From: Eutreptiella sp. 'Long Island Sound 2002'
Lineage: Eukaryota; Euglenozoa; Euglenophyceae; Eutreptiales; Eutreptiaceae
Direction of reading: 5' to 3'
Assembly: GCA_964036045.1 (NCBI GenBank)
Contig: OZ038387.1
Span: forward strand, 54,530,427-54,594,426
DNA: 64,000 nt
A program made the position numbers and the translations under genes. The notes under the pieces are model-generated. The model did not search any database. It was given only the letters and a program-made list of their open reading frames with translations, and was not told the origin of the DNA. Below, piece after piece: positions 4,559 through 48,400 of the stretch. Positions within the stretch are counted from its first letter, which is position 1; each line of letters begins with the position of its first letter.

Positions 4559-5796
4559 GTGTAATTTGTTCTTTCTGACAATGCGAATGTGGTAGACTTC
4601 TACAAGCTTGCCAAGCGCCCGGACTTCCATTTGTTTCACAAACACCCGTCTCGTCACGGGATCAAGTCATTCAGGTCAGCCATTGTGCAGCTTGCTGCTC
4701 AGTGTGTGCGAGTAGAGGTAAGATGGATCAAGGCCCGGACAGGGTTCAAAGGAAATGAAATTGCATACGCTTTTGCCAAATGGGCAAGTTTTGCAATTTT
4801 ACCGACCTCACTGATCCTTCCACCACCCCAAAAAGGAAGCATCACATGGCAAGGTATGCTTGTCCTCGGTAAACTCACACAAAAATCATACAGCCACCTC
4901 CTTCCCAAGCACGTGCACACAGACATCAAGTTGCCAGAGAGCTAGAACTGGTTTCAGTCCACTTCCTAGTTCTAGAGTTTAGCATTCAAATGCTCCGCGT
5001 GTATTTTCTGCACTAAGGGACAGAACCCACATTTCAGAATAGAGAAACACCCCTGCCCAGCTTGCACACACCCTCACCCCATGGACCCCATATCAGTCAC
5101 AGCTCTTTGCACTAAGGCAGCTCACCTCCAGCACGATTTCATTCGGGCATGGCCACCACCATTCGAAGCCTTAGTGTCAAATTGGTGGCATCCGGCCCCC
5201 TCAGCGAGGCACAAACCAAATTTCATCAGAACACTTTCCGAGTGCCACTATATAATCATCTATTTTCCCGTATGGGCTCTACACAAACATCATTCAACAG
5301 CCAGTTAGGTGCAGCACTAAAAGAAAGAGGAGACATGACGACAAAGGCAGCCAAAACAGCCAAGGAGTGGCTGATTGATAACCCTTTATGCTTCCTTCTC
5401 CCCCCGGCAGTCAGCCATAATTCATGGAGCATGAAAGGCTCACCTATTGGCACGTCATTTTTCATCCGCCCCCAAACGAAAGCAACAGTACCATGAACCT
5501 AATACCCTGCCCTCGAAGGTCACACACAAATCAGCAACAATGACACCAAAGAGAGGCAAAAAAACACTACACAGGCCACTAACTCAGCCTGCCATTCGCC
5601 CACAAAATCTGCCACCACCACAACCATTGTTCTCTCCTTCCCTTTGGGACTTTTTTCACCTCAGGTCTCCACCAGAACCACGTCCTTGTGAGGTCACTGT
5701 ACATACTTAAGTGTACATACGGCAATGACGGCTTGACGTGCACACTGGGACAATGATGTTAATGTTATGGGTGGCGACCAACCCCATGGGAAAAAA
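4559..5796 (+). mobile_element. 5'-truncated non-LTR retrotransposon (LINE) inserted in a gag remnant
   Basis: This 1.24-kb plus-strand insert is flanked by a perfect 16-bp direct repeat, ATACCAAGCTCGAGCA (4543-4558 and 5797-5812), and ends in an A-run directly before the right copy. Both are signatures of target-primed reverse transcription. Its 5' end is truncated inside an RNase H domain: the coding part begins near VLSDNANVVDFYK and continues with VRWIKARTGFKGNEIA, matching the D/H/D tail of LINE RNase H domains. A Cys/His-rich segment (around 4990-5120) and a Lys-rich C-terminus follow, as in LINE ORF2 tails. Several frame breaks are present. Confidence 0.75.
4589..4945 (+). pseudogene. 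RNase H C-terminal fragment of the inserted LINE
   Basis: This 118-codon fragment lies within the truncated LINE. It carries an RNase H-like end (RWIKARTGFKGNEIAYAFAKW, where the usual ...GNE.AD..AKW has Tyr for Asp). The domain's N-terminal part, with the first catalytic acids, is missing because the element is 5'-truncated. It is not expected to be functional. Confidence 0.55.
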
Positions 5797-5812
5797 ATAC
5801 CAAGCTCGAGCA
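5797..5812. repeat. Right target-site duplication of the LINE
   Basis: ATACCAAGCTCGAGCA, directly after the A-run that ends the LINE. It is identical to 4543-4558. Confidence 0.8.
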
Positions 5813-6261
5813 CGAAACGCCCATGCCCTGTATTCCGCAATGGTAACCATCTCACCTTTTCCATCAGAACCAAGCGTGCGGCACGTCGTTGACTTCATAC
5901 TCGCCAAACCAGACGGACCGGACGGCGACCCGCCACGAAGCCTAGTGAACGAAGAGGAGTGATTGATAACATGAGCCCGCCAACGCTCTTCATTGAAAAC
6001 ATTAGCCAGCTCACGCCTTTGCGCTAGCAGCTGCTCTTGCATTGCGCCCTCGCGATGATCCCACTTTTGGTCAAAATCAGCCTTCATGTTAGACAACAAG
6101 TGATGCTGCAGCTCAAGCTGATGATGTAGATTACAAACCAAGGCACTGAACTCCGGCTCAGGGACATGCCGCATATGATTAGAAAAAATAGGACCGCCAC
6201 ACAGATCTTCTGGTGTCAGACCACGTGGCTCACCTTGCTTAGTGTACTCTTGATTTGCCAT
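5813..6261 (-). pseudogene. Gag-like remnant, N-terminal part
   Basis: The frame starts at MANQEYTKQGEP (ATG at 6261) and runs about 150 residues with a Gln/His-rich helical segment and a Ser/Gly-rich linker. It reaches RARAW at the LINE target duplication. The same frame continues beyond the LINE at 4558, so the two pieces were one ORF before insertion. No domain is recognised in this half. Its identity as gag rests on the zinc knuckle in the other half. Confidence 0.45.
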
Positions 6262-6299
6262 CAATAAAAGGCCGCTACTAGTGTTATAAATTCCCAAGT

Positions 6300-7380
6300 A
6301 TTGTTGAAACCTTTTAAATAATTCAATTGAGCAGGATCAGCAGGCGAATCAATAGAAGACTTCCAAAGCACTGAGCATTCCAATGAGCAGTCTTGGTTCT
6401 CCAAAGAAAGACACCAATCTATACAACAAACATGATGTAAAATGATATAAATCATAGCTCAAAACTTATTTTAAACAATAAACCTCTGACATGTTTGTGA
6501 CTTCAAAAATTAGGATTTACCGCTTTTTCTGAAACTTTCAGTTTCAAGCAGCTGGCTGAGTAGCATCCACCATGTTCATCTGTCCATCATGAAAAATCTT
6601 TAAAAACATCTTTTTTGTCCTGAAAATCCTTTTATATTCATGTCTTTCTCGAAACATTCAATCATAGAAACTGGTTCAAAAATCACTGTCAACAGTCACT
6701 CATACTGTTACAGTTTTCCATGCTTTAACACCCCTGCCCCCAAGACCCCATTCAGGTAGCAGCTGAGGAGCGCACGGAGGATGGCGATGAGTTTGATTTG
6801 CATGTGACATATGACAATGCTTTCTGAAATTGTCTTCCTCAACACATGAACAGGGGTCCCGAGATGACTCGTCAAACAAAAAGGTCATTCGAACTTTCTG
6901 AGCCATACTTGTGGGATGGGGTCTTGTGCATGTGTGACCTTTTAGTGAAAATAAGCAAAAGGAACAAAAATTTCCCATTTTCAAAATGTTGGTTCTTGAA
7001 ACTATTTGGGCATTACTTAAGGTAGAAAGTGTGTTTTGCGCACCAACAACAAGTTAAATAACAGATGTAAAGCAGCAGAACAGTGACAAATAGCAATGCA
7101 TGGGCCATGCTACACGTTTTTCAAAAATTTTCCAAAAAAAAATTTCAAAAAATTTCCTTTTTAAGATTCATGAAAACGGGTACACGCACCCTCATCAAAG
7201 CACACACAGGCCCCTGAAGGGTAAGAACATCCTTACCCAGTCATAGGAAAGAAATCTAATCAATAGTTTATGGTCCCAAGATATAAAAGTACCCATTAAA
7301 CTACTTTTTCTTGTCAAACTTTTCAATTTATATGTAGTGGCATAGAAATTGGTCATTGGTATAGTTATCGGTCATTTGAC
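6300..7380. other. No gene recognised
   Basis: AT-rich sequence with short frames only. No motif or repeat was seen that I could support. Confidence 0.5.
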
Positions 7381-14407: not shown

Positions 14408-17400
14408 CTGCAGATTCCGATGGTGTGCCACAAACAACGGCGACCGGGTTGAGACGGGCTCTAAATATGACCCGAATCTGCGAATAATGTGAACTGAACA
14501 CGGTCCCAAAGATGCCGCTGCTCATAGGGCACCTTCAGGAGGCGCAGAAAGCCTCGCTAAGTCAACACATTGGGGAGAACGTGCCGGCAGAAGCCAAATA
14601 TCCCCATTACCCTCCCAATTTTAGAATTCAGCTGCTTTGTGCATCAATCCCTTCGAAAATAATGCTCATGTAATTGTTACCCCCCCCCCCCCCCGGCGGC
14701 AGTGCGGATGCCCGCAGTAGTGCGGATGCCCGTTTGTGATCGCAGAAGGTTCAAGGGCGAGAGGGCAATAGGCGCCGCCACAGGCTAACAGAGCCAACCA
14801 CCCAGGCGTTGTGCCACCCCCCCCCCCCCTCCCCGCCCCACTGGCGAGAACAACGGCCAAATACCAAAAGTTGCCCAAACAACAGTTGTTGTCCTGACAA
14901 GAGGTTGTTCTAGCAAAAAGGGGGGAGGGGGCTTCAGCGATGGCCTCATGAGTACGGTCGGGACACTTCCTCCTCCTCATCGCTGGCCAAATACAGTGAC
15001 ACCCACGGGCAGAGAGGAGGAGGACGCAGAGAATCAAACACTCCTCTTGAGCATAACAAGGAAGACAATGGCCCTAGAGTCCAGAGCACCTCGTAGTTGC
15101 CTGCAATGAAGGGGTTGGCACGCCCCATGGAAAGCAGGGGGGCCAAAGGACTGGCGACCGAAGCGAGAAGCGCATGGGTTCATGGATTGCAGGGGCATAT
15201 CCCCTGCCGTCTCACAACGGGGGTGACTTGCACTAACACAACCCTCCGTGTTGTTGTGCGCAGTCGATTGCCCTGAAATGAGAAAGGGGGCTGGCACACA
15301 CCATGAGTTTAGCTACGAGATTGGACATCGAGGTTCGCCTGTTGGAGGATGGACCAACAGAGGGGGGGGATTTTGCGCCACGTCAAATTTGCAGTGGCAA
15401 ATTTCGCTGTGGGAAATTTCGCGGAGCCCCCTGGATTTTGTGTGGTACCCTCCGCCAGAGCCAATGTGTACTGCTAGTGTGCGAGAAATTCGCGGAGAAC
15501 CCTGAATTTTGCGTGGGACATTTCGCAGTCAATTTGAAACGCGAAATTTCCCACGCCAAATTATAGTGCCACGAAATCCCCCCCCCCCCCCATGTCTGTC
15601 TGCAACACCACGGTTGCAACCCTCTTTGGGTGGCAACGGGGAGCACATCAGTGCTTTGTCTCGCGAGTGGCACAGACTGGGTGCTTGCCTGGTCTGGCCA
15701 AGCTCCCCGCCCTCACCTTGCAGGCCTGGCGAGGAGGAGGAGGGCCCCCCCCCCCCCCCCCCTTCCCCGCTGGCAAACAGGCCAGTCTATGCCTGAGGGA
15801 AAGTCGGGTCTGGGACAAGTGCAGCTGTTTGGAGGCTGGTGTGGATGGCAAGATGCATGTGTCCCTTGGAGTTTCCCATGTGATCGGCCCATTCGGGGGG
15901 TTGTTCACCATCCCCTTGAAAACACCCTCCACATCGCCCAACGGATAATTGCTCTGCGCGCACTGTGCTCAAGGCGTGCCCAAAATAACTCGGGTTGATT
16001 GAAATTGCCCCTGACCCTTTTATGCGACAAATTAAAAAAAATTTGTGAGTTTGGGGTCACAAAATTGGGGGAGGTGTGATTTTTCCATTTTCGACCCCCC
16101 TCGGCCGCCCTTAGGACCCCGGAGCCCCCCAATGTACCCTTCGTGAACCGGCCGTTTGAATCCGAGATTCACGGTACCGTGAATTTCACCCAATTTTGCT
16201 GTGTTTTGCTCGTAACTTGGTGCTATCGTGTGCTTTTGTCGTGCTACCTTCGCCCAAAGTAAGATGCAACAAATAGGTGCAATTTAGAGGTTTAAAGTCC
16301 CCGCATGGTTTAACACATTTGGTGAGATTCGCATGAATGTGAGATTCACGCACCTAAATTCACGCAGAAATTCACGCCAGATTCACAGATTCACAGAATG
16401 TGAAATTCGTACGAAATTCGTACGAATTTCGTACGAATTTACCCTCATTTCCACTGTTTCGCTTTCTCACAGCTCTCAAAGCCTTTCTTCGCATTCTCTT
16501 TTGACAATGTCCCAGCAGACTATGTCGCAGCTCGCCAGCCTGGCCTCTCGCCCCGACCCCGCAGCCGACACCCTCGCCCATTACCAAGCCCTCCCCGTTG
16601 CCCACCATCAATTGGAGGAGGCAACGTACGAGTCGGAGGCACTGGGGGTGGATGACATCGTGGGCTGGGCAGCCTCCCTCGACCCCTCCCCCGATGTCAT
16701 CCACATCGACATGCGCAGCCCCACCCGCAACAGCTACCTCGGGGGGAGGGGATGGGCCACAACCCTGTGGAGGGAACTGCGCCACCAACTCCCCACCCTC
16801 AAATTTCTCCATCTAACCCCTCTCCCCTCCAGTGTTGACCAGCTCCTCAACTCGATGAGGAATAACCCTGTGGGGAAGCCTAAGGACGCCCACGTCCAGG
16901 TGTACCCCACCACTAACCTCGTCCACACCCCCCCCCACTGCGATATGGTGTGCCTGCAGGATCTTGCTGCAGGTGCACCAGCAGACCACTCTTTTTTCCC
17001 CTTTTCTTGGCATCTTGCCAACCCCCGGTGGTGGGATGATTTGGGCGTCGCCCCTTTCCATCCCACCATCCCCCCCCAGGTGCACGTCCCCGACGTCACC
17101 CACCCCACCTTCTATAGCACAACTTCTTTGCAATGGTACCGTGGTGCCTCATGCGCCCCCCCCTTCATTTCGAGTGAACCCCCCCTCCGCACCGAACCCC
17201 TTCCCGACCCCCCTCATGGGGTGACGGGCAGCCCTGACCCCGCCCCCGACAGGGTTGGCCCCTCTCAGCCGCCCCTCAACTTTGTTGATGGGAACGGCTA
17301 CATTGTGCTTCGGGGGCTTGTGGAGGCACGGGATTGTGAGGTGGGGTGGAGGAGGAGGAGGAGGAGGAGGAGGAGGAGCGCCTGCCGCGGTCCCACGTAC

Positions 17401-20400
17401 GGTCAGCCTTGGCGTCGTCCCCCGGGGGCCCCACGCAGGCACAGCCGAGGGAGTCCTCCGTCTTACCTCCGCTAGAGTAAGACGAATCTCGTCGCACACC
17501 TGAGAACGCCCCTCCCAGCAGGCCGTCTGGGTCAAAGCGCCGGTGTACGACAACGCTACGGTCCGATCTGCTCTCCGGTCCCGGCCACCGACCGCTCCGA
17601 ACTGTCCTGGGTCCACCCGAGGTAGCGTCCCAGGATCAACGGGCACGGAAGGTGTGGGTCTCCCGGGGCATCACCCCCGACTTGAAAACGTCGCCGGGCT
17701 AAATACAACGCGGCCCAGCACGACTATGCGCACTGCCGGCGGGCTGAGTACCGCCGGCGTCGCGAGTACGGTCACGCTACACGATCACGCGCACCGCCGG
17801 TGGCCTGGGTACCCCCGGGTTCTGTGAGTGCGGGACGTGCGTCACAGCCATAGCACCACGGTGGTGCACCGCCGTGGAGGTCACCGACGACGCCCGGCCG
17901 CAAAGGCCGAGCCCAAACGACGAGCCCTACGATACGTGCACCGAGACGGCACGTGACCGAGAAAGTGGCACCACGATGGTGCCCGAGCGAGACGGCGACG
18001 TTCGCCGATGGCACGTGAGGTGGTGAGTACCGCCGATGACTCGTCACCTCTGCACGGGGTGTCACGGAGGGTGGCGGAGCGCCAGGTGCAGACCCCGCCA
18101 TGGTGCCTCGAGTATTGGCCTGGAGGACACACCATGGCCAGGCTGGCGCACGAAGACCGTTTGGGCAGCGCCACGGTGGCGCTCTGCCCTGAAGGTTGCG
18201 CCACGACGGCGCACGTGTACGTTGACTGCACCACGGTGGTGCCACGTCACTGAACTGGCGCCACGTCGGCGCAGGGCTGTCTAGGCAGCGCCGCGGTGGC
18301 GTTCTGCCCTGAGGATTGCGCCACGATGGCGCACATGTACGTTGGCGGCACCACGATGGCGCTCTGCCACTGAACTGGCGCCACGGAGGCATAGGGCTGT
18401 CTGGGCAGTGCCACGACGGCGCCGTGCCCCGAACACTGCGCCACGGCGGCACACGTGCACGTTGGCTGCACCACGGTGGTGTGATGCCACTGAAGTGGCG
18501 CCACGTTGGCGCTGGATTGTTTGGGCGGCGCCGTGGCGGCGCTCTGCCGAGAAGGCCGCGCCACGACGGCGTTCTGCCCTGAAGGCCGCGCCACGACGGC
18601 GCACGGGTACGTTCGCGGCACCACGATGGTGCCCTGCCACTGAGCCCGCGCCATGTCGGCGCAGAGCTGTCGGGGCAGGCGCCACGTTGGCGTCTGGCGG
18701 TCGGGGGGAGGCCACGTATGTGCATCTGTCCCCCACAGGACTGCATGTCTGGCCCAGGGAGGGGTCCTGGACGGTTGGCGGGCGGGGTGGGCTCGGCCTG
18801 ACACAGGGAAGACGCACGAGAAATCGAGACGTATCACGACTAGCTTCGAGCGTGGCAGTGCGTGTGGGCAATCCGTCCCACAGCTACCATCCTGAGGGTT
18901 TTTAGACTGGTGCCGGGTCACCAGGGTGGGGTGGAACAAGGTGATGAAGGCGTGGGGCAGCGGCGACGAAAAAGTCGTTGCAAAGAATTTTGAGCTCCTT
19001 TTCAACGCCGCGCGCAGTGAGGAGCAGGCCAAGGATCCTGCGCTCCCCCGCCGGTGGCAAAGCAAGAGCGCCTTGGGGTCGGGGGTGGGGGGGCCTCTCT
19101 TCAAGAAGTTCAACCCCCACCTCACCGAAAGTGTCCCTGGGGTTGGGAACCTCCACCCAATGACGCCGGGCAGCGTCATTGTGGCCAGTGTGGGGAGTGG
19201 GCCGCAGCTCCCCCACACCGACGTGGCCACCCACCCCGACGTCCTCCCCCCCAGCGACAGGGCGGTGGGGGACTGCCACCTGAGTAACTTCCTCTGCTTG
19301 TCAGAGGACTACCAGGTGGCGGTGCAGGCAGGGACGGCCCTGGGGGAGGCGGGGGAGGCGCGCTGGGACACCGTTCAGCTGCATCGGGGGGACATGCTGC
19401 TGATGGTGGCCACCAGCCGCCATCATGGATTGCCTGCCCACCCCGACTCCAAGGATGGGCTGCAGGGGGCTCTTTTTAACTTGTGGACCCCCGACCCCCG
19501 ACACAAACACCACCAGGCCAACACCACACACTTGGACGCCATCCCCCCCAAGGAGGCCCTGGACGTTGCTGGGGATTTGTCCAGCTGGGACCTCCCCAGC
19601 GTGGACCAGGTGTTGTGGGTGGGGAAGGGGGCGGTTGGGAGGGTGGGGTTGTGGGAGGGGGAGGCTGTCCAGGCCCTCTTCGCCGACCCCCCCCAGACGC
19701 TCCCGGCAGGCCCCCCCACCTGCCCCTTCCACCCCACCTTCATCTCCCGGTCGGCCCCGGCCTCCGACCTCGCCGTCATCGAGGTCGGCCCCCAGTGCAT
19801 GGTGTTCTTCGTGGGCAGCGTGCACCAGCTGGAGGTCGCCAAGGGGGGCGATGTCGACGCGGAGTCGGAGATCCACTTCGCCTTGTCCGGCATTGCCCCC
19901 CCGGGTCGGCCGACCACGCTGTGGCACCTGGTGAACACGGTCCCAGCGTGGCGGTCGCCCAAGTGCGCGAGGACCGGGGCATGGAGCATCACCTGCCCAT
20001 GCGACTGCAAGGTGTGCTTGCTTGTGTGTTTGCTTTGTGTATTGGCAAATTGGACGAAATTCACGTGAAATTCGTACAAAATTCGTACGAAATTCGTACG
20101 AATTTCGTACGAATTTCACGTGAATAAATTTGTGTGAATTTTCTCGAGATGTGAAATTCGTACGAAATTCGTACGAATTTCGTACGAATTTCGTACGAAT
20201 TTCTGTGAATTTCGTCCAATTTGCTCCTTTTGCTCTTGCATTGCCTCGTGTCCACTCCCCCTTTCTCAATTTGTGCCTTGCACACCTCCCCACATCTGCA
20301 TGCAGGTCCCGTTCACCGCTTGGTCGCCAGATATTCGGCACCACACCAAGCGCCAGTACAAGCCCCGGCCCCGATTGCCCGAGGAGCACGCCGAGCCCGC

Positions 20401-23400
20401 CGAAGGCCCCGGTGGCGACCAGCCCGCAGGCACCGGCGGTGGACGGGCACCAAGCGACTGGCAGTGTGCGCAGTGAGGGGTCGCAGCGCTCTCGCCGTTC
20501 GGGAGGCAGCGAGGCCAGCACCGCCAGGGGGCATATGGTGCGCGAGGTGGTGGTGCCCCAGCCGTCCCGCGACGAGTTGGGCGACGCCCACAACGACCCC
20601 CCCCTGGACCGGGTCACCCTGGCCGCCAGGCAGCCGGATCCGGCCTGGACCCAGCAGGTGCCGCCCGGGCCGGATGGGCGGCAGCGGCACCTCAGTGCCG
20701 TGTGGGACATGGAGTTGGAGTCGCGGGGGGTGCAGGGCACCCTCCGCATCTCCTTCCCCTGCCCCATTGTGCTCCGGGGGGGGTCCAACCTGCCTGCGGG
20801 GCAGGAGCTGGTGGGCATGTTTGCCTACCGGCTTGTGAGTGGGCACTGGCGGGTGCAGACGGGGGTGTCGCGGATCGGGGAGGAGGGGACGGTGACGACG
20901 GCTGGGATTTGTGGGCTGAATGTGCTCACGGGTTGGGAGCAGCGGAGGCCGGAGTGGGTGGACGTGGCATGGCTTGCCATGCGCGTCCATGTGGGGAGGC
21001 AGCGGAAGATGGGGGTGGTGGCTGACGTCATTGACGTCGAGGAGGACGAACCCCCCCCCACGCGCAAGCGGAAAGGGCGCCCCGAAGGGGACACGGGCCC
21101 CACCCCCCCCCCAAAGCCCCGCGTACGTCCACCCCGGCGGAGCGGGCAGGGCGGGCGGAGCAGGCGGAGCCGGTGGGGGGGCGGGGGCAGAGGGGGGTGG
21201 TGCAGGAGTGGGTGGACCAGCAGCGGGCGGGGGCGTGGGAGGCACGCGCCATCAGCGCGGAGGCCGCCAACCGCGACCTCGAGGCCCGTCTGTCCAGGGT
21301 CCACGAGGACAGGCGGGACTGCGAGTCGCGGTTGGCGGACGTCACCAAGGAGCGTGACCGGCTGGCCACCAAGGTGAAGACTCTTGAGCGCGACGTGGCG
21401 ACGTTGCGCAGGGCAAAGCCCGCGGCACAACCAGCAGAGGTAGTGGAGAGGGCTGAGGGTGCTGAGGCCCCCGCCCCCCCGGGTGACAGGGGGGGGGGCC
21501 AGTGCTGCCGGTGTCCGGTACCTCCTGGCCGGCGCACAGGCCTGGCATGCCCAGGCCGAGGCATGCGCCGGCCAGATGTCCGCAGTGTCCACCGGCCTGC
21601 GGATGGCCATGATGGCCAGTGGCCAGCAGGTCGATGTGGACAGCGTGGCCCCGGACGCCCCCAAGGTGACTGCCGCAATGGAGGAAGTGCGCCGGCAGTA
21701 CCCCCCCCACCGCCTCACGTCGGCGGCCATGGACCCCTCCTTTGTGGAGGCGGTGGTGGAGCAGAGCTCCCAGGGCACCGCTAGCCGGAGCTCTGCTCCC
21801 GGGGGGGGGGGGGTGCGTAGGTACCCTCCGGAGCACCTGTCCTTTCTAACCACGACGAATGTTATCCTACCCCCCCCGCCCCAAGCATGGGCAGTTTGAC
21901 CGATATGTGGGGTACTCCCCCCCCACTGTGCGAAATTTTCTGCAGCACTGTTTGTACATTAATTGGGGTACGGTGTGCCCCCTGACCTGTTTGCGATTTT
22001 TTCTGCGGAACTGTTTGTATTTTATTTGGGGTATGCTATGCCCCCTGAAGTGTTACACTGCTGGCTGAGTGACAGCCGGAATGACAGCCAGTGGACTGGG
22101 CGTGTGATAGCCCATGAGCAACATCCTGAGCTTGCTTTGTGAGGGTCAACGAGGGCACAAGGATGAGGCTTTGGCAGAAATTCTGTGACAATCATGTGAA
22201 ATTCGCACGAAATTCGTACGAAATTCGTACGAATTTCGTACGAATTTCGTACGAATTTCACATTTTCAGAATATTCACACATTTCTATTCACGTGAAATT
22301 CGCACGAAATTCGTACGAATTTCGTCCGAATTTCGTACGAATTTCGTGCGAATCTATGTGAAATTCTTTTAATTGCATGCGAATCACAGTAGAGAGAGTT
22401 GTCTGCGGGAGGGGGATGGTAGAAACTTTGCGATGACTGCCTGCCCATTCAACAGGTCCTGTATCTCACACCATGCCACGGCCCAAGGAGCCATTCCATC
22501 TGGTAGCGGATCGTACACGACGGCGGCGCCTACAAGAGCTCCAGGAGGTTGTTACCAAGGAGCTTGCAGCACCCTACACCGTCAAGTACCTGCCCGACAC
22601 GGGGCAAATAGTGCTTACCCCCGAAACAAGAATTGTAGCCACCGTCCAGCCCGAGCCCACCCAGGAGGAGAGGTTGATTATGGCCGTGTGGAGGATCCGG
22701 TCATTGCACCTCTCTAGGACAGAGTCCCGGTACCTAGTGGGGAGCATGACGTACGGTGTGGTATGGGACCAGGTGTACGGCATGCTTCGGCAGCTAGCGT
22801 TGCCGGAGTCCCGGGCGTTCACTGCCTATACGGGTGACGACACGGCCATCAATGGTGCGGCCTGCTACCTACCTGACCGCATCGCCCACCTATTCAAGTG
22901 TCGACCACCACCACCCTCGGCCATCATGCAGCCCGGGGACCGACGGCTGCATTGGTTGCCTATTGCGGTGGACGGTACATCGAGGCATGAGGCCTCGTAC
23001 GTCCATTGCACGCTTGGTGGCACCGCCAGCCCCAACCAACTATCTAGTTGGTGGCTACTAGGGGGCAGTGAAAAGTGGGAGACCCTCTACGCGGCCTCCC
23101 AGGAAATTGATTTTGATGATGAGTTGCGCAAGGCCGCAACCGTAAGTTTTAAGGATACGGCAGGGAACGATAGGCAGTCCCTTTTTTTTCTGTGTGCAGA
23201 TGGTAAGGCACAGGTGCTCATGGCGGGCTGCCAAAACTGGAAGGCAGAATCCCCTGGTGCCACTGTGTGTTGGGTCTGCATGCGTAACCGTGCTCTGTGC
23301 CTTGCTACCTTTGGCACAGCAAGTGCGATAGACGGCAACTGGGAACCAGCCGTTGCCATAAGTGCTATATATAGGACCATTATGAGTGATAGGCGAGTGC

Positions 23401-26400
23401 CGGATTATGGCCTCCATGGGGTCCTTCGTGTCCTGTTGTGTGCCGTTAACGGGACACGGGACCTAGTTGTACAATTGACAGGGAAGGCACCGGCCACTGT
23501 GGCACGCACCATGCTGCAACCGGTTTTAGATGGGGCACGGCTTGCTGCACGAACTTCCACCCGTGCCTCCTTAAATAATGACAAGGCAAACAGCAAGGGG
23601 AAGGTGAGGATGGAGTGTGCTGCTGCCATCCATTTCATGCGCAATAGGGGTTGGGAGAAGATAATAGATGCTTGCCTAGAGCAGCCTAGTGTCAGGCAGC
23701 ATCAAGTAGGGGGAAAAAGTTGGGAGTCGGTGTGCAAAACGTGGTGGGAGAATTTTGCAAGCATGTGTGTATACGCGTGGCGTTCCGCATGGTTCTCCGG
23801 GGCCGACTTGGGGCGGCTCCGGAACCATAGCATAGCCATGGGCGCTGCCCACAATGAGCTCCAGTGGGGCAAACTTCTGTGGACGCATCTTTGGATCGAC
23901 CACATGTATTATTTTGCAAAGAGGTGGAGAATCTTGTCAAAGTTCTCCTGCTTTGCCATGGAGGGAAGTCACCGGAGGCTGAAGCGCATGTTGCGCAACA
24001 GCGGGGGCCTAAGCCTCCTCCGGGGGAGACTAGGGGTGCAAGTGGTTGTGGACAACCACACAATTGACGATAGCCTTTGGTTGCATGGCTGGGATGCGAC
24101 CAAAAGGGCTCAACATGGGCAAGGGCCCATAAGTGTACAAACGTATGCAAGCCGCACAAGAAGACGGCTTCCAACCGACATGCAGCACCTTCAGACTCTA
24201 CAGCGGCGGTTCCGGTGCCGCAAGAGACGGACATGAGATGACCTTACGAACCCAGACCATTGTTGCCTGTGACCGGGGTGCATGCTGGGGGGCTTACTAG
24301 GGGTGTGAGGACAAATCAGGGGGTGCACACGGGTAACATTTGTGTAAATTCAGGTGAATTCACGTGAAATTCGTACGAAATTCGTACGAAATTCGTACGA
24401 ATTTCGTACGAATTCACGTGAATTCACGGCTGTGAATCGGCTACAGGCTTGCCGGGTTCCGGCACCTCTCGTTTTGGGCACGGTGCGGTCATGATGCATG
24501 CTTTTGGGGCGGGACTTTCATTGGATGATGCGTAACAAAGCTAGGGGAGGAATTTTGGCCCCTCAAAGCCCTTGAAATGAACCAAGAATATGGCATTTTC
24601 CCCCAAAAACCTCAAAATTTGGGTAAATTGACGTGAAATTCACGCAATTATTCCAACGGCCACTTAACGGCCGTTCACGAAGGGTACAAAGCGGTACCCA
24701 ACGAAGGCTGAGGGGTCAAAATCAGAAAAATTATTGGGCGGCACTTCCTTCCGCACGGGCAGCACTCCCTTGCGCACAGGCTGCAGTTCCTTGTGCACGG
24801 GCGGCACTCCCTTGCGCACGGGCAACACTTCCTTGGGAATGCTTCCTGCGCGCCGCAGGTGCGCCACGGGCGCGCCGCAGGGAAAGGGTAATTAGCTTTA
24901 GTGTACATTGTCCAAGAAAATGACCCCGTGGACCATACGGCTTGTACTTGACGTTGCACTTGTTGATGAAATGCGGTTCATAGCATGGACAATCCAATGG
25001 AGTCGTAGTATGCTCTCCTCCCAGTTCTTCCCCAACTTGATGCACGGCTCGCGGCACACAGCCCAATCAGGGGGAGGGCGGAAGAAAAATTCCCCTAGGA
25101 GGTGAAATTTTTTTTCAACCACGACACTTGTCCCCCCCCCAACCCCGTATACAAAAATTTCTACCCGTGGGGGACTTTTTCTACCCTAACCCCCCATTGT
25201 CCCCACTAGGCCCACAAACCCCCTGCCCCCCCCCCCCCCCCGTTGCCCCCCCCCCTGGCCCCCCCACCCCCACCCCACCCCCCTTGCTCCGCCGCCTCCA
25301 CACAATTTCCATGGAGGCTGCCCCGGCTACCATGGCCAGGCGTGGCCAATCACATGCCCCCGATCCCGGGGCCGACTCACGGAGCGCCGGGTTCCAAGCA
25401 CACGAGCACCAATTGTCGGATCGATTGTTCACATATATATGTACAGGAGCACATTGATCTTTTGACACCATCGCTCTCTCAAAGAGAAGAGACTATGGCC
25501 CCGGCTCAATGTGCAAAAGCGTAGAAGGGAATTGCACCCTTCGGCACTGTGTCGCACTCGGTACTCACACGCACAACGCTTGTGACTTGCATCCTGCACA
25601 CACTGTGCTGGGGCGCCAACACACCTATTTTTGTGGAATGCCTGTCTTCAGCGCCATGCGAAGATGCCGTCAAGTGGTCGCAGCAGCCTTGGTTGTTGGC
25701 ATAGGTGCTAGACTGGAGCAGAACACCGAGGGGCCTGCAGAAAAGTGTCAAGCAAAACACACCTGTTTTTTGCCTGTTTTCAGCGCCATCCAGAGATGCG
25801 TTGCCCATGATGCGCCCATTGTCAACTTGAGGGTCAGGGTCTTGGTGTTGCTCCACAAAATCTTGATACCTGCAAAAAATTTGCAAGCAAAACACACCTA
25901 TTTTTTGCCTGTCTTCGGCGCCATCCAGAGATGCGCTGCCCATGATGCGGCCATTGTCAACTCGAGGGTCAGGGTCTTGGTGTTGCTCCACAAAATCTTG
26001 ATACCTGCAGAAAAGTGGCAAGCAAAACACACCTGTTTTTTGCCTGTCTTTGGTGCCATGCGCTGCCCATGATGCGGCCATTCTCAACTTGAGGGACAAG
26101 GTCTTCTTGTTGCTCCACAAATTCTTGATACCTGCAGAAAAGTGGCACGTGTGCCGGGGCGCCAACACACCTGTTTTTTTGAATGCCTGTCATCAGCGCC
26201 ATGCGAAGATGCGGGCTGGTGGTCGCGCACGCTCTTTGGCTGGCGCGCAGTCTTGCCGCAGTAGCATCCGCTTTTCTTCTGAATTCTGCCTTGATACCTG
26301 CAGAAAAATCGTATGCACAACACACCTGTTTTTTGCCTGTCTTCAGCGCCACCCAGATATGCACTGGCCACATCCTGTTGGTTGCCTCGCCCATTGGCAG

Positions 26401-32400: not shown

Positions 32401-33403
32401 TGCGGTGGGGGGGGCGCACTGAGAGGCTCGCCGCTGGTTGGCTTGCGCAGTGAGCAACGAACCAAACTGCGGGGTGGGGCACGGCCGCTTTGGAGCGGGA
32501 GCCAGTGGGAGCAGTGAGGAACGGCGGTGCCTGCTATACTGGGTCAACGTCACCTGATCACTGGCTGGAGGGGGCGGTGGCCGATGAGGCAGAGGTCTGG
32601 GGATACGGGGGTGTTTCGGGGTAGCACAGAGGATTTCAAGCACCACTACTGCATGTTCCTCGTCCCTGCCAAGGAAATGCGAACGGCTAATTCGCATTCC
32701 CTCCCGCCATACCTGCAGGGGGTTTTTCTTGGGCCACATGGTGCTGGGACGCACAGCATAGAAGGTGAAAAATGGTAGGAAAATGCTGAGCATATTGCTC
32801 AGGATATTTGGGGATGCTCAGCATTCATGCTCAGCAAATGGGACTCATATTGCAGGGTTGATCTCGGAAGTCCCAGCCAAAATTTCTTCCGAGCTCCCCC
32901 GGCACGGTCGGCTGGGGAGCCCATGGAACATTCCTACCGATATCGGTTGCGTTTTGGGACCCGATTTGGCTGCCAAAACTTCCGAGCATCTTTCCGAGGG
33001 ATTTAAAAAACTTGCAAGCGTTTTTCCATCAGTTTTTTGTACAATGACCTACACCGTTCTTGGTTCCCAAATCCCACACCTCAGCAAAGAAACACACAAA
33101 AAGACAAGCATGACCGTTCACTTACGCTTGAAATGTGAATGCTCAGTGCCTTGCCTGTTCATTTCAGCTTGAACTGTGAATGCTGTAATCTCCTTCGCTG
33201 AGCATCTGCACAGGACAGCCATCGCTTGACATGGCATCCACATCCACCACCACACGGCGATACTTCTTGGGTTGAGGTTGGGGTTCAGGGTTGTCACTGG
33301 ATGATGAGGAAGAATCTGAGGCACTTACTGTGGAGGCACCAGATAGGTGCACAGCATCATCATCCGAATCATTATCCTCGGGACTGCTACTGCTCCCACT
33401 ATC

Positions 33404-33450
<47 letters not shown>

Positions 33451-36400
33451 TACTGTCACTGCTGCTACTGCCACTGCCACGAGGGCACACAAGTTGCTGC
33501 TCAATGTCGCTATCAACAATGGGTACACGCGCCAACTTCGTACGCCTCATGGGTTGAACACGCTGCTGCTCGTTCAAACCCGTAGGACCTTGAAATGAAG
33601 CAGCACTGTCCTCGCCCTCCGAAGGGGGTACAATATCAACTGTCGCAGGGTTAGAAACTCGGCTTTGAGGGATGGGTCCGACACGTCCCTTACCCTTTCC
33701 CTTGTCCTTCAGCGCCTTACGGCGTGCAGCACAGGACTTAAATGTGGCACGGCTCTTCAAACCCAGTTTGGGCCACTTGCAGACAGCTTCTCTGTCCAGT
33801 GGTACCCATTGACGGACACCACGCTTTGAGCCACAGGTCCCACACAGACATACCACATCACTCTCGGGATTTGCACCTGGAAAGGCGCATTTCACCGAAC
33901 GGGTGTCTGGGTGCATATATAGGGAGCAACCACCTCCCTCCTGGAAATCCAGCAAATGCTCTAAGAGGCGTTGGAAGACCACATGCCACACGGCATTGGC
34001 AGCAACCATGCACGCCTCAAGAACAACGTTTCGTTGCACGGGCGCCCAAATTTTGGCACAGGGGATCTTCTTTTTTTTCTGCACGAACTTCTGATACAGC
34101 TCATGCTTCAAACTTTCACTAATACTGGCATCTTGCCTGGTACTAGTGACGGGGGCATATCTCTTGGCCACCCTCAGATCCCGCTCGCCGGCCTCATCGG
34201 AATACAGCATGGGTGTCCGTGGATTAAACCATGTGTGGGACCACCCATGCATATATAAGGTTGCAGTGCAACCTTCTTCAGCAAACTCGGGGATGATGTG
34301 CACAATATATGTGTACAACATCCCCATAGCTTGCCATGTGACAGTTGCCAGGTTATTACAACCATAGCATAGATGCACCATGTGGCAAAATGCCACCACC
34401 AAGGAATGGAAAGGCAGGGGGAGCACCATACCCTCTGCTAGTCTGCCCATGACTGTGCGGGCCTCGCGACCTGTGAGGCTAATGCCTGCCTGAAATCTAC
34501 CTCGTACGTGACGCATGTGCTGCCTGCTATCAGGTGGCAAAGATCCAGGATCATACCTCCTTGCCACATGTGCTATGACCTGGAGTAGCTCATGGTTGTA
34601 GGGCGCTGGTAGTGTTCGACCTATGACACCCAGGATCCTGGAGGCTGCTCCTTTGGTGTTGTGCAATACAGGTTGCACAATATATACCTCTTCCAGGTTA
34701 GAAACCCCCTGAAACTTATGGGACCCACGCACACCATTGAGACATCCCCCTTTGTGCAAAAAGAGTTCTCCCGCCCCATCCTTATTCACCCAGGGACACG
34801 CCACACAGCCCTTTTGCCGGCACTCAGACCACAAATGGTGGTGATCGGCAGTGATTGCCCCGAGCCTTATCTGCAGGGTGGTGTTGTACACTGCACCAGC
34901 ATACTTCATACGTTGCTTAAATTTACAAGAAGGCAGGGCTTGTAAGGCCTCTGCACGTTTGGGTAGCCACTGGCAATCACTGACCTTGGGAAGCTCTTGC
35001 CAGGTCAACATGTCTGTGCACCTAGGCACATTGCCAAACATTGGGAACCAGTGTCCCTGGAAATCAATTATACTGATTTTTGTGTTAATATTTGGACGGC
35101 CCCGGGGCTGGTAACCGTCGGCGTAGAGGCCTAAGGTCAGGGTGGCATGGGGTGGTGGGGGTTTCTGCCGGCCTTGGGCAGCCAATGAGCCACACTTCTG
35201 TAGAAGTAGGTGGCACAGCTGTGGTAACAACTTCCTGTTGTCCAGGGAGTAGTCCACTGCAGGAAGATGCAGGTCCTCCTGTTGCCTTAAAGCAACCATT
35301 GACCAACCAACCCCTGGTTGGAGATGGTCTAAGGTGCGCAAGACAGCTGCTGGCACCACATGCTCATGGCGAAGGCGAAGTGCAGCGGCCTGGCACTCTG
35401 GTGCTTGGGTGACTGATGTGGCCTGTGTGGTAGGCAAAGGGCCAAGGGACCTACGCACAACTGTGAAGGTGCCACTTGGGGGGCGCTGTAGCTGGTCTAG
35501 GTCCTTGGCCTGCAAGGGGGTGGCCGTGGGGAAGTTCATGGCAAAGGCTGACACCATGAATTGATCAGCTGGAATAGGGCATATGCTGGCAAATGCCTCC
35601 AGCTTGGAGATCTCCCCCTTCACCCATATAGCATGGTTGTTCACAACAAATTCATGGTGAAACATGGTGCCTGGAAAACAGAAGATTGCAGTGGGCCACT
35701 GTTTTGGTTGGTTTCAAAGGAACCATGTATGGAAAGCCCCAACCAATACCTGTCACCAGAACCTTTTTTTGCCAGGATTGCTCCAACCAGTTTCGAGATC
35801 CAAGGGTCCAAAGTGTGCTCGACTATCCGCCCCCTCCCTCTGCGCCACTGTTTTGGTTGGTTTCAAGGAAACCATGTATGGAAAGCCCCAACCAGTACCT
35901 TTCACCAGAACCTTTTTTTGCCAGGATTGCTCCAACCAGTTTCGAGATCCAAGGGTCCAAAGTGTGCTCGACTATCCGCCCCCTCCCTCTGCGCCACTGT
36001 TTTGGTACGTTTCAAAGGAACCATGTATGGAAAGCCCCAACCAATACCTTTCACCAGAACCTTTTTTTGCCAGGATTGCTCCAACCAGTTTCGAGATCCA
36101 AGGGTCCAAAGTGTGCTCGACTATCCGCCCCCTCCCTGTGCGCCACTGTTTTGGTTGGTTTCAAGGAAACCATGTATGGAAAGCCCCAACCAGTACCTTT
36201 CACCAGAACCTTTTTTTGCCAGGATTGCTCCAACCAGTTTCGAGATCCAAGGGTCCAAAGTGTGCTCGACTATCCGCCCCCTCCCTCTGCGCCACTGTTT
36301 TGGTTGGTTTCAAGGAAACCATGTATGGAAAGCCCCAACCAGTACCTTTCACCAGAACCTTTTTTTGCCAGGATTGCTCCAACCAGTTTCGAGATCCAAG

Positions 36401-39400
36401 GGTCCAAAGTGTGCTCGACTATCCGCCCCCTCCCTCTGCGCCACTGTTTTGGTACGTTTCAAAGGAACCATGTATGGAAAGCCCCAACCAATACCTTTCA
36501 CCAGAACCTTTTTTTGCCAGGATTGCTCCAACCAGTTTCGAGATCCAAGGGTCCAAAGTGTGCTCGACTATCCGCCCCCTCCCTCTGCGCCACTGTTTTG
36601 GTTGGTTTCAAGGAAACCATGTATGGAAAGCCCCAACCAGTACCTTTCACCAGAACCTTTTTTTGCCAGGATTGCTCCAACCAGTTTCGAGATCCAAGGG
36701 TCCAAAGTGTGCTCGACTATCCGCCCCCTCCCTCTGCGCCACTGTTTTGGTTGGTTTCAAAGGAACCATGTATGGAAAGCCCCAACCAGTACCTTTCACC
36801 AGACCTTTTTTTGCCAGGATTGCTCCAACCAGTTTCGAGATCCAGGGGTCCAAAGTGTGCTCGACTATCCGCCCCCTCCCTCTGCGCCACTGTTTTGGTT
36901 GGTTTCAAAGGAACCATGTATGGAAAGCCCCAACCAGTACCTTTCACCAGAACCTTTTTTTGCCAGGATTGCTCCAACCAGTTTCGAGATCCAGGGGTCC
37001 AAAGTGTGCTCGACTATCCGCCCCCTCCCTCTGCGCCACTGTTTTGGTTGGTTTCAAAGGAACCATGTATGGAAAGCCCCAACCAATACCTTTCACCAGA
37101 ACCTTTTTTTGCCAAGATTGCTCCAACCAGTTTCGAGATCCAAGGGTCCAAAGTGTGCTCGACTATCCGCCCCCTCCCTCTGCGCCACTGTTTTGGTTGG
37201 TTTCAAAGGAACCATGTATGGAAAGCCCCAACCAATACCTTTCACCAGAACCTTTTTTTGCCAAGATTGCTCCAACCAGTTTCGAGATCCAAGGGTCCAA
37301 AGTGTGCTCGACTATCCGCCCCCTCCCTCTGCGCCACTGTTTTGGTTGGTTTCAAGGAAACCATGTATGGAAAGCCCCAACCAGTACCTTTCACCAGAAC
37401 CTTTTTTTGCCAGGATTGCTCCAACCAGTTTCGAGATCCAGGGGTCCAAAGTGTGCTCGACTATCCGCCCCCTCCCTCTGCGCCACTGTTTTGGTTGGTT
37501 TCAAAGGAAACCATGTATGGAAAGCCCCAACCAGTACCTTTCACCAGAACCTTTTTTTGCCAGGATTGCTCCAACCAGTTTCGAGATCCAAGGGTCCAAA
37601 GTGTGCTCGACTATCCGCCCCCTCCCTCTGCGCCACTGTTTTGGTTGGTTTCAAAGGAACCATGTATGGAAAGCCCCAACCAGTACCTTTCACCAGAACC
37701 TTTTTTTGCCAGGATTGCTCCAACCAGTTTCGAGATCCAGGGGTCCAAAGTGTGCTCGACTATCCGCCCCCTCCCTCTGCGCCACTGTTTTGGTTGGTTT
37801 CAAAGGAACCATGTATGGAAAGCCCCAACCAGTACCTTGCACCAGAACCTTTTTTTGCCAGGATTGCTCCAACCAGTTTCGAGATCCAAGGGTCCAAAGT
37901 GTGCTCGACTATCCGCCCCCTCACTCTGCGCCACTGTTTTGGTTGGTTTCAAGGAAACCATGTATGGAAAGCCCCAACCAGTTCCTGTCACCAGAACCTT
38001 TTTTTGCCAGGATTGCTCCAACCAGTTTCGAGATCCAAGGGTCCAAAGTGTGCTCGACTATCCGCCCCCTCACTCTGCGCCACTGTTTTGGTTGGTTTCA
38101 AGGAAACCATGTATGGAAAGCCCCAACCAGTACCTTTCACCAGAACCTTCATTTGCCAGGATTGCTTCAACCAGCTTCGAGTTCCAAGGGTCCAAAGTGT
38201 GCTCGACTATCCGCCCCCTGCCACAGGCACAACAAGCACAAGCTGGGCAGTTCATGGCCGACTGGCTGGTGGTGTTGAAAAACACCGTAAAGGTCCACTT
38301 CCTCAGGCGTTGCCGAAGAGCTGGAAATTGGACCGTCTCGCCGAAGTCTGGGGTCGCTGCGGGGGGGCTTGCGCAGGGAGCAATGACCCAAACTGGGGCC
38401 TCTGCGGTGGGGGGGCGGACTGAGAGGCTCGCCGCCCGAGCAACGAGCCAAACTGCGGGGGGGCTTGCGCAGGGAGCAATGACCCAAACTGGGGCCTCTG
38501 CGGTGGGGGGGCGGACTGAGAGGGGGGGCCGAGCAACGAGCCAAACTGCGGGGTGGGGCACGGCCGCTTTGGGGCGGGAGCCATTGGGAGTAGTGAGGAA
38601 CGGCGGTGCCTGCTATATTGTGTCAATGTCACCTGATCCCTGGCTCGAGGGGGCGGTGGCCGGCGAGGAACGGGTTGAGGGGGCGGCTTGGGGATAGGAG
38701 GGTGTTTTGGGGTAGCACACAGCACTTCAAGCACCACTGCTGCATGCTCCTCGTCCCTGTTGAGGAAATGCGAACGACTAATTCGCAGTCCCTCCTGCCA
38801 CACCCGCAGGGGGTTTTTCTTGGGCTGCTGAACCGCAAACCGATACATCGCTCGGCAGTTCAGCACCCCATCAAAAAAATACTGTACCCCACCCCCGTGG
38901 TTGTCCCGGATGAGCTGCAGTGTTTTGGCACTGTAGGGCCCGTGAACAGTGGGTTTTGGGGGGGTGGGCGGGTCCTTGGGTGCGTACTTGGGGGGTCGTG
39001 GGGGGGATGGCGGTGGCACGGCAGTGCACATCAGGGCCTCCTCCAGGGCTTCGAGGGCGACCTGGTATGGGGTTGAGTAGGGTCTGGGCAGAGGACTTGG
39101 AGAGGTTGGTGCGCGGCTGGGTGGAGGGGGAGAGGGGGGCGGTGTGGGCAATGGAGGTTGGGGCGAGGCCAGTTCGCTGAGACACTTCTCAGCGTCAGAG
39201 TCCCACGGTGGCGACGCGGGTTGGTCTCCGAACCGCAGGAGCTCCGGCAAATCTCCCCGGCCGTCCCGGAAGGAAGGGCTGGAGGGGACAGAAGAGGCCA
39301 CGCTAAGGGGGGTAGACGACATGGCGAGCTGAAAAGAGAGGGTCACGGGTGCCAGACGCCTACTTGGCGGGAGGGCGGGGGGGCGGGGGGGGCGGGGGAG

Positions 39401-45400: not shown

Positions 45401-48400
45401 CGGCAATCCAGAGCGAATAGCCCTCGGCGGTTGCAGAACTCCCAGGGCGGCTTCTCGTAGTTGCCCCGCATGACGGGGTACATTCGCCGCTGCTGCTGCA
45501 GGGTGGGAGCCTGCATAGGGAGAACCCCGGGACACTTGCGCTCGCGAAGAGGGATCGGAGCGTCAAGGTCAAGGTCCATCTCCATTGCAGAGTCTACATC
45601 CAGGTCTGGCACCTGGAGAGGGGGCCCGAGCTCCGCTACAGCGGCTGCACCAGCCGCGGCCAATGTAGATGCGAGCCGGACAGCCCCTAGGAGCTGCGGA
45701 TGCTTGTCTACGCGGATGAGCATGCTCAGTAGGGGAGTTTCTGAGCCAACACTACCCTGAAAGAACTCCGGCACGACTTTGCCGTACCGCACCGAGTCGG
45801 TATGCTGGGTACCCGAGCAGTGGATGCTAAATGCCTGGCTCTTTGGGGTCTGCACTATGGGCAGGATCTTGCCATAGGGGCACTGCCACTTCTTTGTCGG
45901 GATGTCGCGGTTGCGCCACCCTGCGGCAACGTTAATGGGAGGCAAGGAGGGGGGAGATGCACGCATATCAGCCATCGTGAGGAAGTGGAAGACTTTATGG
46001 TAGCCGCAACAAAAAAGGTGAGGAGGGAGACGAACGGCAAGGCTCGCACTGTCGCACTGTATAGGAGCTCCCACGGGCCATGGGTACAACCGCATAGCCT
46101 GGTCACACTCCAGCAAAGCACGAATCAGCACAACCAAGCAACGTTTGGGCAACTATTTTGCCGATGTGAAACCAGAATCAGTCCCTGACCTTCCCATTAA
46201 CCACGTGTCTACCCAGACAGCCCATGCCCACTTCCCAACGGACGAACAACGTATGAGCAAGACGCACAAGTGTGGACGGCCCCCCCGGGGGCCCCTGTTT
46301 GGGCAGTACGCCATGGAAAAAAAAAGAGCGTACTACCCAAACAGGGGATCTCTGGATTGCGGCATAGCTGCAGTGGCAGCTCTAAGCTTCCAAGCTTAGG
46401 GAGAGTTACCCTGTTTAATGAACCGTCCACCAGGACCTCCAATGCCGCAATCACTCGGGGGCGTGTCGCTTTCGGAAAAGGTGCTGTCCGACTCAGAGTT
46501 GGAGGGGGGGGTCTTTTATCCACTGTTTGGTGCGCTCGTCCTTGAAGAGTAGTCCTTTGGAGCGCAACTCCACTGCTGCCACCTTGAAAAACTCTGCCGC
46601 GTCATTTTCCTCGTGAAAGGCAAAGCACATTTTGTTATACCCTCTGACTGACAGGCTCCAGCGAGATAGTTCCGCTAGGGCCTGCAGTAATGCCTGGTAC
46701 AATGTGTACCAGAGTGTACGGGCATGTTTGTCTTTCATGTTTTTCTTGTAAAAGACCTGGCAAACCAGTGCAGACTTCTGCAGTCCTCTGCTGTGATATT
46801 CATCAAGCGTCATGAGGGAGAAATGACCAGTTCCCCCATATTCGCCAAAAAATTTTTGTAGGCGCACGCCTGTCAGGGGTGCATAAAAGACTTGCGTGTT
46901 GAGGGGGGGTTGCTTGTCCATTACTTTCCCCTGGGTCCTGCCCTGGTGAAAGTAACATTGGGCTCCTTGAAGGCCCAGTTTTTGCATGGCATGCGGCATG
47001 TCTTTCTCATCAACTTGGATGACTCGCATATCACGATCCGGGCGTTGTGCTTTGAAAGGTTTCCGGGCCAGTGTGGCCCCCTCCCAGAGGAGTCGCACAC
47101 TGAGAAACTCGGGCTCTAGCTTGTTAGCTATGCCTGAGGCTGAGGATTGAATGACAAAGAACGAAAGTTCATGGCCTGCGCCACTAACATGCAGTTTTTC
47201 AACCCCAACAGCGGTCCCCAAAACACCCCACCCAACCGGGAACTTTTTCAACTTTGGGTGCTTTTTTTTTTTCAACCGCGACACTTGTCCCCCCCCCAAC
47301 TGGGTTGAAATTTCGCCTACCGGGGTGAATTTTTTCTCGCCCCCCCCCCCCCTTAGCCCAATTGTACAATTGGGCAAACAGATGCTCTCCAGGGCCTCGA
47401 ATGAAAGAGCGCCGATCACGGATCAACATCATACGGAATCAAATGCACCGTTTGTGAAAGATAGAGGCCCAAAAAGGGGAATGCACAATCAAATAGGAGA
47501 AAAATGTGGTGTGTGTGTGTGGGGGGTAAACGGTATGTAACAAATGTGTGTATGTATGCGGCACTATTCCGCCTCTATTCTGGTATAATTACCCAAACTG
47601 CGCGCCGCAGGGCACAACGTAGGCGCCGCAGTTTGGGTGTTCCCCTTGCGCATGGGCAGCACTTCCTTGCGCACGGGCAGCACTTCCTTGCGCACGGGCA
47701 GCCCTTCTTTGTGCACGGGCAGCCCTTCTTTGCGCATGGGCAGCCCTTCTTTGCGCATGGGCAGCCCTTCTTTGCGCACAGGCAGCACTTCCTTGCGCAC
47801 GGGCAGCACTTCCTTGCGCACGGGCAGCACTTCTTTGCGCACGGGCAGCACTTCCTTGGGCACGGGCAGCACCTCTTTGCGGACAGGAAAAATGAGTTCA
47901 CAAGGGATTGCACATCCAATTGCATACACTGGGGTACACAACGGGATAACCCCCAAAAAGGGGGGCCACATGGAGGTGATTTGGGGACCTATCCTCCAAA
48001 CAAGTGCAAGAAAGATCCGAGGTTCAAAATCCAATTGCTCTTGTTAGGATAGTCAGATAAGCAGGGAAGGAGCTAAAATGGTGGTTTGAAAGAGTGCCTC
48101 AATCGCACCGCACGCCGCACCACGGGCACCGCATGTTTTAGTCGACACGTCATTTACCAATGTACCACACCCGTGTTACAGGGAGGAAAACGGTGGCCTA
48201 CAATGCCCCCTGAAGCCCAAAAAGAAACCACACACTATTAGCCCTGGGCTGCAACGAAGATGTCTCTACCCAAACAAAGGAACTGACCACCCGTCGCTGC
48301 TGTTCAGTGCCGTATGACCGCCTTTTGCGACATTCCTCGTCGCCGTTGTTCTACGCCAGTCCTGCCGAAACGCACCGTGTGTGAGGCACTCTCGAGGGCA

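Follow-up and report, generated by a model that had tools for sequence, protein, structure and literature searches.

The 64,000-nucleotide stretch of the Eutreptiella sp. 'Long Island Sound 2002' genome analysed here (assembly GCA_964036045.1, contig OZ038387.1, positions 54,530,427 to 54,594,426 of the forward strand; hereafter the window) contains a genuine transposon copy at positions 16133..24688, with its genes on the + strand. The family to which it belongs has precise inverted ends, a 2-bp target-site duplication and a high copy number; its open reading frames (ORFs) travel with the ends, the first of them (ORF1) is continuous in sister copies, and internally deleted derivatives occur. 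We propose that the element is a cut-and-paste transposon of the EnSpm/Plavaka (CMCT) group, with a putative Fe(II) oxygenase as cargo whose substrate would be modified bases in host DNA, and we give this reading as a whole an even chance. The genome searched was the 2.28-Gb assembly of 2205 contigs, in which the window is C10:54530427-54594426.

The ends were defined by the comparison of 17 copies. Twenty stretches were fetched, of which L044, L050, L054 and L063 were excluded for a missing or masked paired end, and the 16 with both ends were compared together with the window copy. The terminal repeats begin with TGTACCC, and their 16-base core, TGTACCCTTCGTGAAC, occurs exactly twice in the window, at 16133..16148 (+) and, as an exact inverted match, at 24673..24688 (-), as the sequence-only reading had recognised. 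Imperfect similarity extends some 60-90 bp inward from the core, and the element termini are TGT..ACA. Homology between the 17 copies ends at the core, and directly outside it a 2-bp direct duplication of varying sequence is present in all 17; a third duplicated base matches in only one of them. In the window copy the duplication is AA, at 16131..16132 and 24689..24690. Inverted termini and a duplication of fixed length are therefore found at independent insertions, as in cut-and-paste DNA transposons with terminal inverted repeats. The window copy measures 8556 bp, or 6971 bp after removal of a later insertion with its duplication (1585 bp).

The span first read for the element, 16078..24732, is too wide, since the duplications place its real ends at the cores. 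The blocks outside them, 16079-16106 and 24706-24731, resemble each other with a score of 26.5, which was reached by 1 of 2000 shuffles. At the equivalent positions of the 16 further copies the score does not exceed 16, and no other place matches among those listed; for these reasons the outer blocks are flank, and they look like part of this target site and not of the transposon. An empty site was recovered for the copy L060, whose target is a repeat: an uninterrupted paralogue in the same flank has two differences in 42 bases from the joined flanks. For the window insertion, a genome search with the joined flanks (40 of 102 candidates scored) showed no empty site, the matches listed being confined to the insertion's own two flanks and to a 21-bp satellite on its right side; this counts against our reading. 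A 21-bp satellite-like unit, CCTTGCGCACGGGCAGCACTT, occurs in similar form at window positions 24737-24841 and 47644-47881, with related tandem arrays on C15, C5 and C17.

The exact core was found 2881 times in the genome, with strand counts of 1463 and 1418, whereas a control with reversed letters was found once (1 and 0). Markers of 30 bases, with up to three mismatches, gave 901 matches for ORF1 (the putative oxygenase) and 1063 for ORF3 (the transposase), and both controls gave none. All eight loci retrieved through the core alone (L006-L013) match the element ends, L010 being more diverged (68-84%). One of them, L013 (C1:18344949, a 4.6-kb core pair), is 94% like the family over its first 330 bp, and its fetched interior, without a match, possibly holds other cargo. 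Neighbouring cores within 12 kb were analysed for the first 100 places listed (C1, up to 54.5 Mb): 30 adjacent pairs are convergent (+-), 6 are in the -+ arrangement, 3 in ++ and 3 in --. The convergent pairs span 478-11819 bp, with clusters near 0.48, 4.2 and 6.0-7.0 kb, and four of the 30 are shorter than 1 kb.

Linkage between the genes was counted with exact markers on C1 up to 178.19 Mb. An ORF3 marker lies 0.2-7 kb downstream on the same strand for 45 of the 82 exact ORF1 markers, compared with a random mean of 0.155, and 35 of these 45 pairs are at 4.2-4.9 kb; the opposite-strand and upstream controls gave one each. Upstream of 10 of the 13 exact ORF1 markers in the first 54.5 Mb of C1 an exact core is present at 1437-1470 bp, and among the matches listed 28 of 74 scored ORF3 places have an ORF1 place 2.5-6 kb upstream. 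The check that inverted ends and ORFs travel together was thus passed, though many copies with paired ends are without one or both exact markers. Some counts go the other way: for 37 of the 82 exact ORF1 markers, no exact ORF3 marker lies in the vicinity; the 30 convergent pairs hold both exact markers in 5 cases, only ORF3 in 11, only ORF1 in 2 and neither in 12; and derivatives without ORF1 are clearly common. Exact markers undercount the genes, and some pairs scored as ORF3 only carry a mismatched ORF1 (those at C1:38203103 and C1:53654507 are ORF1 places). ORF1 belongs to the full element yet is frequently lost.

The core pairs of 0.48 kb, and most of those of 4.2 kb, are derivatives, and deleted copies with the same ends were found at L057-L061. 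L061, of 3778 bp, joins element positions 1-2357 to 5469-6963; three copies of 478-482 bp, L057 mapped among them, keep about 240 bp of each end; and L060 is a copy of 770 bp. The 11 full copies other than that of the window measure 6685-7001 bp, and pairwise identity among the 12 is 97.2-98.9%, with a mean of 98.1%. This mean identity and the many transposase places free of stops (65 of the 74 scored, the best 74 of 8559 candidates) support recent activity of the family.

Three co-directional ORF regions are present in the interval, as first described. ORF3 (22473..24236, +) encodes a putative DDE transposase of 587 aa, which is intact in the window and also found at this length in L045, L046, L049, L052, L056 and L062. 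The residues D167, D243, C266-x2-C269 (CWVC), H472-x4-H477 and E497, placed by eye, are kept in seven of seven aligned copies and support the presence of a DDE-like transposase in the mobile element. According to the accessible text of Kojima 2025 (PMC12730594), C(2)C and H(3-4)H before the last E are the mark of the EnSpm/Plavaka/Transib (CMCT) group, whose target duplications are of 2-5 bp and whose termini are mostly 5'-CA..TG, with PlavakaA having 2-bp duplications and TGT..ACA ends. The order D, D, C(2)C, H(3-4)H, E is readable in ORF3, with the catalytic residues assigned by eye, and the 2-bp duplication falls within the CMCT range. The usual CMCT termini are not those of the element; both its TGT..ACA ends and the length of its duplication are the ones given for PlavakaA. 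Judged by these residues and ends, the element is probably a CMCT member, with PlavakaA as the best fit.

Three results tell against this assignment: ORF3 has no family in Pfam, NCBIfam or PHROGs, its PDB profile searches returned two matches each time, at chance level, and its single-sequence structure model is poor. Pfam presumably includes a Plavaka model; no known Plavaka or EnSpm profile matched the three transposase copies scanned against Pfam, that of the window at E values up to 1 and those of L046 and L062 at E values up to 10. The relation to KDZ (Kyakuja-Dileera-Zisupton) elements that the sequence-only reading had suggested is not borne out. These are likewise large transposons with a possible oxygenase cargo, and the kinship is unsupported because their target duplications are given as 7-8 bp in the accessible text of PMC12730594, against 2 bp here.

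ORF1 is broken in the window copy by an insertion, so that only ORF3 stays intact there. Its first part (16507..17350, +), the N-terminal part of the putative oxygenase, starts with MSQQTMSQLASL and is open, without the insertion, in other copies; the second part (18925..20011, +) contains HTD at 19214-19222 and RHH at 19418-19426. In sister copies the frame is uninterrupted: of the 12 loci scanned (L045-L049, L051-L053, L055, L056, L062 and L063), seven carry it at 657-660 aa, as in L051:5573-7552:- (660 aa), and in the others a frame from the same start is shorter or was not detected. Of the 110 ORF1 places scored over the genome, the best of 4025 candidates, 61 keep a frame of 640 aa or more open and 99 are free of stops. 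The intervening segment, 17351..18924, had been taken for an intron of a spliced 701-residue product, which we reject. It is an unrelated high-copy repeat with 41 genomic matches including that of the window; of the 40 further ones (best 40 of 2386 candidates), 39 are near full length at 98-99% and one is partial. These matches, the 11-bp direct duplication GGTGGGGTGGA that frames it (copies at 17340-17350 and 18925-18935) and the continuous ORF in sister copies show that it is a separate insertion and not an intron. Several matches of the repeat are direct pairs a few kb apart, as long terminal repeats would be, and its interior has GC-rich 120-bp units.

The ORF2 region (20306..21896, +), seen in the window as tblastn pieces, has a basic N-terminus and a coiled-coil-like stretch, and gave weak matches to coiled-coil families in the profile scan. 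It is frame-shifted in the window relative to other copies and reaches 533 aa in sister copies, with an open version at L055:3838-5436:-. Between ORF1 and ORF2 there is a predicted GT-AG intron of 294 bp (20012..20305, +). Its ends, GTGTGC..CATGCAG, and a donor that all 12 aligned copies retain suggest a fusion, and splicing of ORF1 to ORF2 through this intron is likely on these signals. Gap intervals with a length not divisible by three number 5 of 8 in the first part of ORF1, 0 of 1 in the second, 24 of 34 in ORF2 and 5 of 5 in ORF3. Such frame-breaking gaps indicate that many copies are decaying, and those of ORF2 weaken the model of a fused ORF1-ORF2 protein.

In the mechanism we propose, the ORF3 transposase would bind the TGTACCC.. 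terminal repeats of full and deleted copies and insert copies by 2-bp staggered cuts. ORF1 and ORF2, spliced through the 294-bp intron, would yield one protein of about 1170 residues, in which the putative Fe(II)-dependent oxygenase of ORF1 would most likely target modified bases of the host DNA. This modification may let the element escape silencing by cytosine methylation.

The case for an oxygenase starts from HTD, residues 377-379 of ORF1, and RHHG, residues 445-448. Of 30 pieces counted, one was dropped for its length; the remaining 29, equal in length, all have HTD and the first His of RHH without change, and 28 of them also the second His. This conservation tells little, since two thirds of the residues are invariant and similarity was the basis on which these copies had been picked. 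When the window fragment was shuffled 20000 times, 51 of the shuffles contained the pattern HxD-x(45-90)-GD-hydrophobic-H, which was chosen post hoc; the L051 copy, with RD for GD, fails its strict form. In addition, NGYIVLRGL lies some 110 residues further upstream and GALFNLW follows the second His, at what we take to be the positions of oxygenase strands. Of the HTD...RHH oxygenase cargo read at first, then, the residues stand and the enzyme is not established. From these motifs we would give an oxygenase fold of ORF1 a balanced chance, and consider it doubtful that its product modifies DNA.

The same transposon could instead carry in ORF1 an accessory protein, DNA-binding or a helper of the transposase, with HTD...RHH a coincidence in a protein rich in His and Asp. 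EnSpm, Harbinger and Mutator-like elements carry second proteins. The following results speak for such a protein and against the oxygenase. No family was found for ORF1 in Pfam, NCBIfam or PHROGs at E values up to 10, and its PDB profile search gave chance-level matches only, none of them an oxygenase. The Tet_JBP model (PF12851) did not match in an hmmscan of two ORF1 copies; searched over the genome it matched a single place, on C2034 and outside the transposon family, and a profile comparison of ORF1 with this one Tet_JBP gene found nothing. At the canonical position of the Arg that binds the co-substrate 2-oxoglutarate (2-OG), placed by eye, 28 of 29 copies have Gln and one has Arg. Other HxD sites exist in ORF1 (HCD at residue 144 and HPD at 383), and its AlphaFold2 model without an alignment is poor, with a pLDDT (predicted local distance difference test) of 33.8, and uninformative on a double-stranded beta-helix. 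The oxygenase identity is thus drawn only from the HxD...GD...H pattern, as no profile matches, Tet_JBP misses ORF1 and the models failed. It is the low frequency of this pattern in shuffles, with the reservations given above, and the two strand-like segments that speak against a mere accessory protein, which we rate as a real possibility somewhat short of even.

Another reading makes ORF1 a vitamin-C-type base modifier like the algal TET homologue CMD1, with the Fe triad kept and the 2-OG site lost. The accessible text of PMC11065753 and PMC7854593 describes for CMD1 an HxD...H arrangement without the canonical 2-OG site, and does not mention an association with transposons. HxD and the first distal His are likewise kept in 29 of 29 ORF1 copies, and the Gln at the putative 2-OG Arg site recalls CMD1, as a lead only. 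We find this reading improbable: ORF1 has no detectable sequence similarity to CMD1, or to any PDB oxygenase, at E values up to 10; the residues were aligned by eye, and a Lys is present four residues before the putative Arg site in 29 of 29 copies; and the spacing from Asp to the distal His is 67-68 residues, against 50 in CMD1 (Asp347 to His397, in the accessible text of the same two articles).

It is very improbable that we are dealing with an integrated virus or a virophage-like element: several co-directional genes, terminal inverted repeats and a JBP gene of viral appearance at another place in the assembly (L064) would fit, but no capsid, polymerase or packaging protein was recognised in the profile scans, the size is 6.9 kb, the element behaves like a DNA transposon in its 2-bp duplication and its short copies with internal deletions, and no relative was found in the viral contigs searched with ORF3, an ORF1 piece and the ORF1 alignment. 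The ORF1 alignment found no relative in prokaryote genomes either. The 16-base core is present in five viral contigs, probably by chance, since these have no match to ORF1-3. The JBP gene L064 (C2034:19243-19665) is the one place in the genome that the Tet_JBP profile matches; it lies in an AT-rich frame of 534 aa, in which another region follows the oxygenase part, adjoins a histidine-kinase-like frame (by eye), and looks like viral DNA in the assembly or a contaminant.

The genome has 55 matches to C5-methyltransferases. CpG observed/expected is 0.61 in the window outside the element, 0.81 inside it (GC-rich insert included) and 0.74 over the 12 copies, in which CpG transitions occur at 2.7 times the non-CpG rate (0.0108 vs 0.0040); in the 30 ORF1 pieces the rates are 0.0082 and 0.0033. 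The methyltransferases, the CpG values and the excess of CpG transitions fit a CpG-methylating host, a context that we count in favour of the proposal. Several of the methyltransferase matches form groups of equal score on several chromosomes, as if some of these genes were carried by repeats.

The repeat type said to be restricted to the element is indeed so, with 20 of the 20 TTCGTACGAA sites of the window inside it. These 11-bp palindromic units form arrays upstream of ORF1 (16406..16437), in the predicted intron (two arrays, 20082..20199), between ORF2 and ORF3 (22213..22341) and downstream of ORF3 (24370..24412); in the arrays, length differences between copies are largely multiples of 11. 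The three copies of 478-482 bp are without arrays, which are thus dispensable for mobility; in L060, of 770 bp, they are present. For the arrays one may suppose a function in regulation or in protein binding. They are CpG-dense and their CpG transition rate is 0.0113 per site against 0.0108 elsewhere, so that a protection of CpG is not visible in them, which counts against the proposal; the non-CpG sites of the TTCGTACGAA unit are more variable (0.0195). Coding constraint speaks in favour: pooled over the 12 copies, the ratio of nonsynonymous to synonymous substitution rates (dN/dS) reaches 0.33 in the first and 0.51 in the second part of ORF1, 0.79 in part of ORF2 and 0.74 in ORF3, values that are biased downward for ORF1 and unfair as a comparison with ORF3, since the copies are the best protein matches to the second part of ORF1.

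Among known systems, the element is probably a new variation on the theme of the fungal transposons that carry TET genes. The accessible text of PMC12730594 lists Kyakuja, Dileera, Zisupton, hAT7, IS3EU, PHISTA, EnSpm, ESTA, Plavaka and Helitron as fungal DNA transposons with TET/JBP genes, the TET-carrying Plavaka families being all PlavakaB and in fungi. With them the element shares a putative base-oxidising gene inside a transposon, and the same idea of escape from methylation; it differs in the roughly 1000 copies of one family and in a cargo outside the Tet_JBP profile. With PlavakaA, in the accessible text of the same article, it shares the 2-bp duplication, TGT..ACA and a DDE domain with C(2)C and H(3-4)H before the last E, and is unlike it in a transposase without a Pfam match and a cargo not recognised as TET/JBP. 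Amoebidium offers a Plavaka-type transposase in a non-fungal eukaryote; the accessible text of PMC11244446 places it at the flanks of clusters of up to 50 kb with tyrosine-recombinase genes, and does not mention an oxygenase cargo. Plavaka is also mentioned in the accessible part of a green-alga article (PMC12633428). A literature search over titles and abstract openings, with most subscription journals outside its scope, found no account of this element.

A more specific version of the proposal is that a PlavakaA-like transposon, apparently outside the fungal cases, made an independent capture of a base-modifying Fe(II) oxygenase beyond TET/JBP profiles, possibly one without 2-OG as in CMD1, and fused it by splicing to a basic coiled-coil protein, spreading to about 1000 copies in a methyltransferase-rich host; taken with all its parts, this is speculative and rather unlikely. 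If ORF1 is a base-modifying oxygenase, transposon capture of such enzymes extends beyond TET/JBP and, probably, beyond fungi, and the family would be a very abundant and recently active natural system for testing the erasure of DNA methylation by transposons. If it is not, this is still a numerous family of DNA transposons with many nearly intact copies and two conserved proteins that the libraries tested do not recognise.

An Rfam scan of the window found nothing. Elsewhere in the window, a Gag-like ORF with a zinc-knuckle-like stretch (534-2708, -) and a reverse-transcriptase-like fragment (61904-62416, -) were noted by eye. An ORF of 833 aa (33164-35665, -) with Cys-rich stretches and a Ser-rich tail is, by eye, perhaps another transposase, and has no Pfam family above the cut-off. 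Next to it, at 35695-38219, a 149-bp tandem repeat of 16.9 copies at 97% is open in all three forward frames. The thioredoxin-domain protein at 55298-57886 (-; Pfam, E value 1.1e-15), with a long repeat region of the VPQVPQ type, is probably a host gene.

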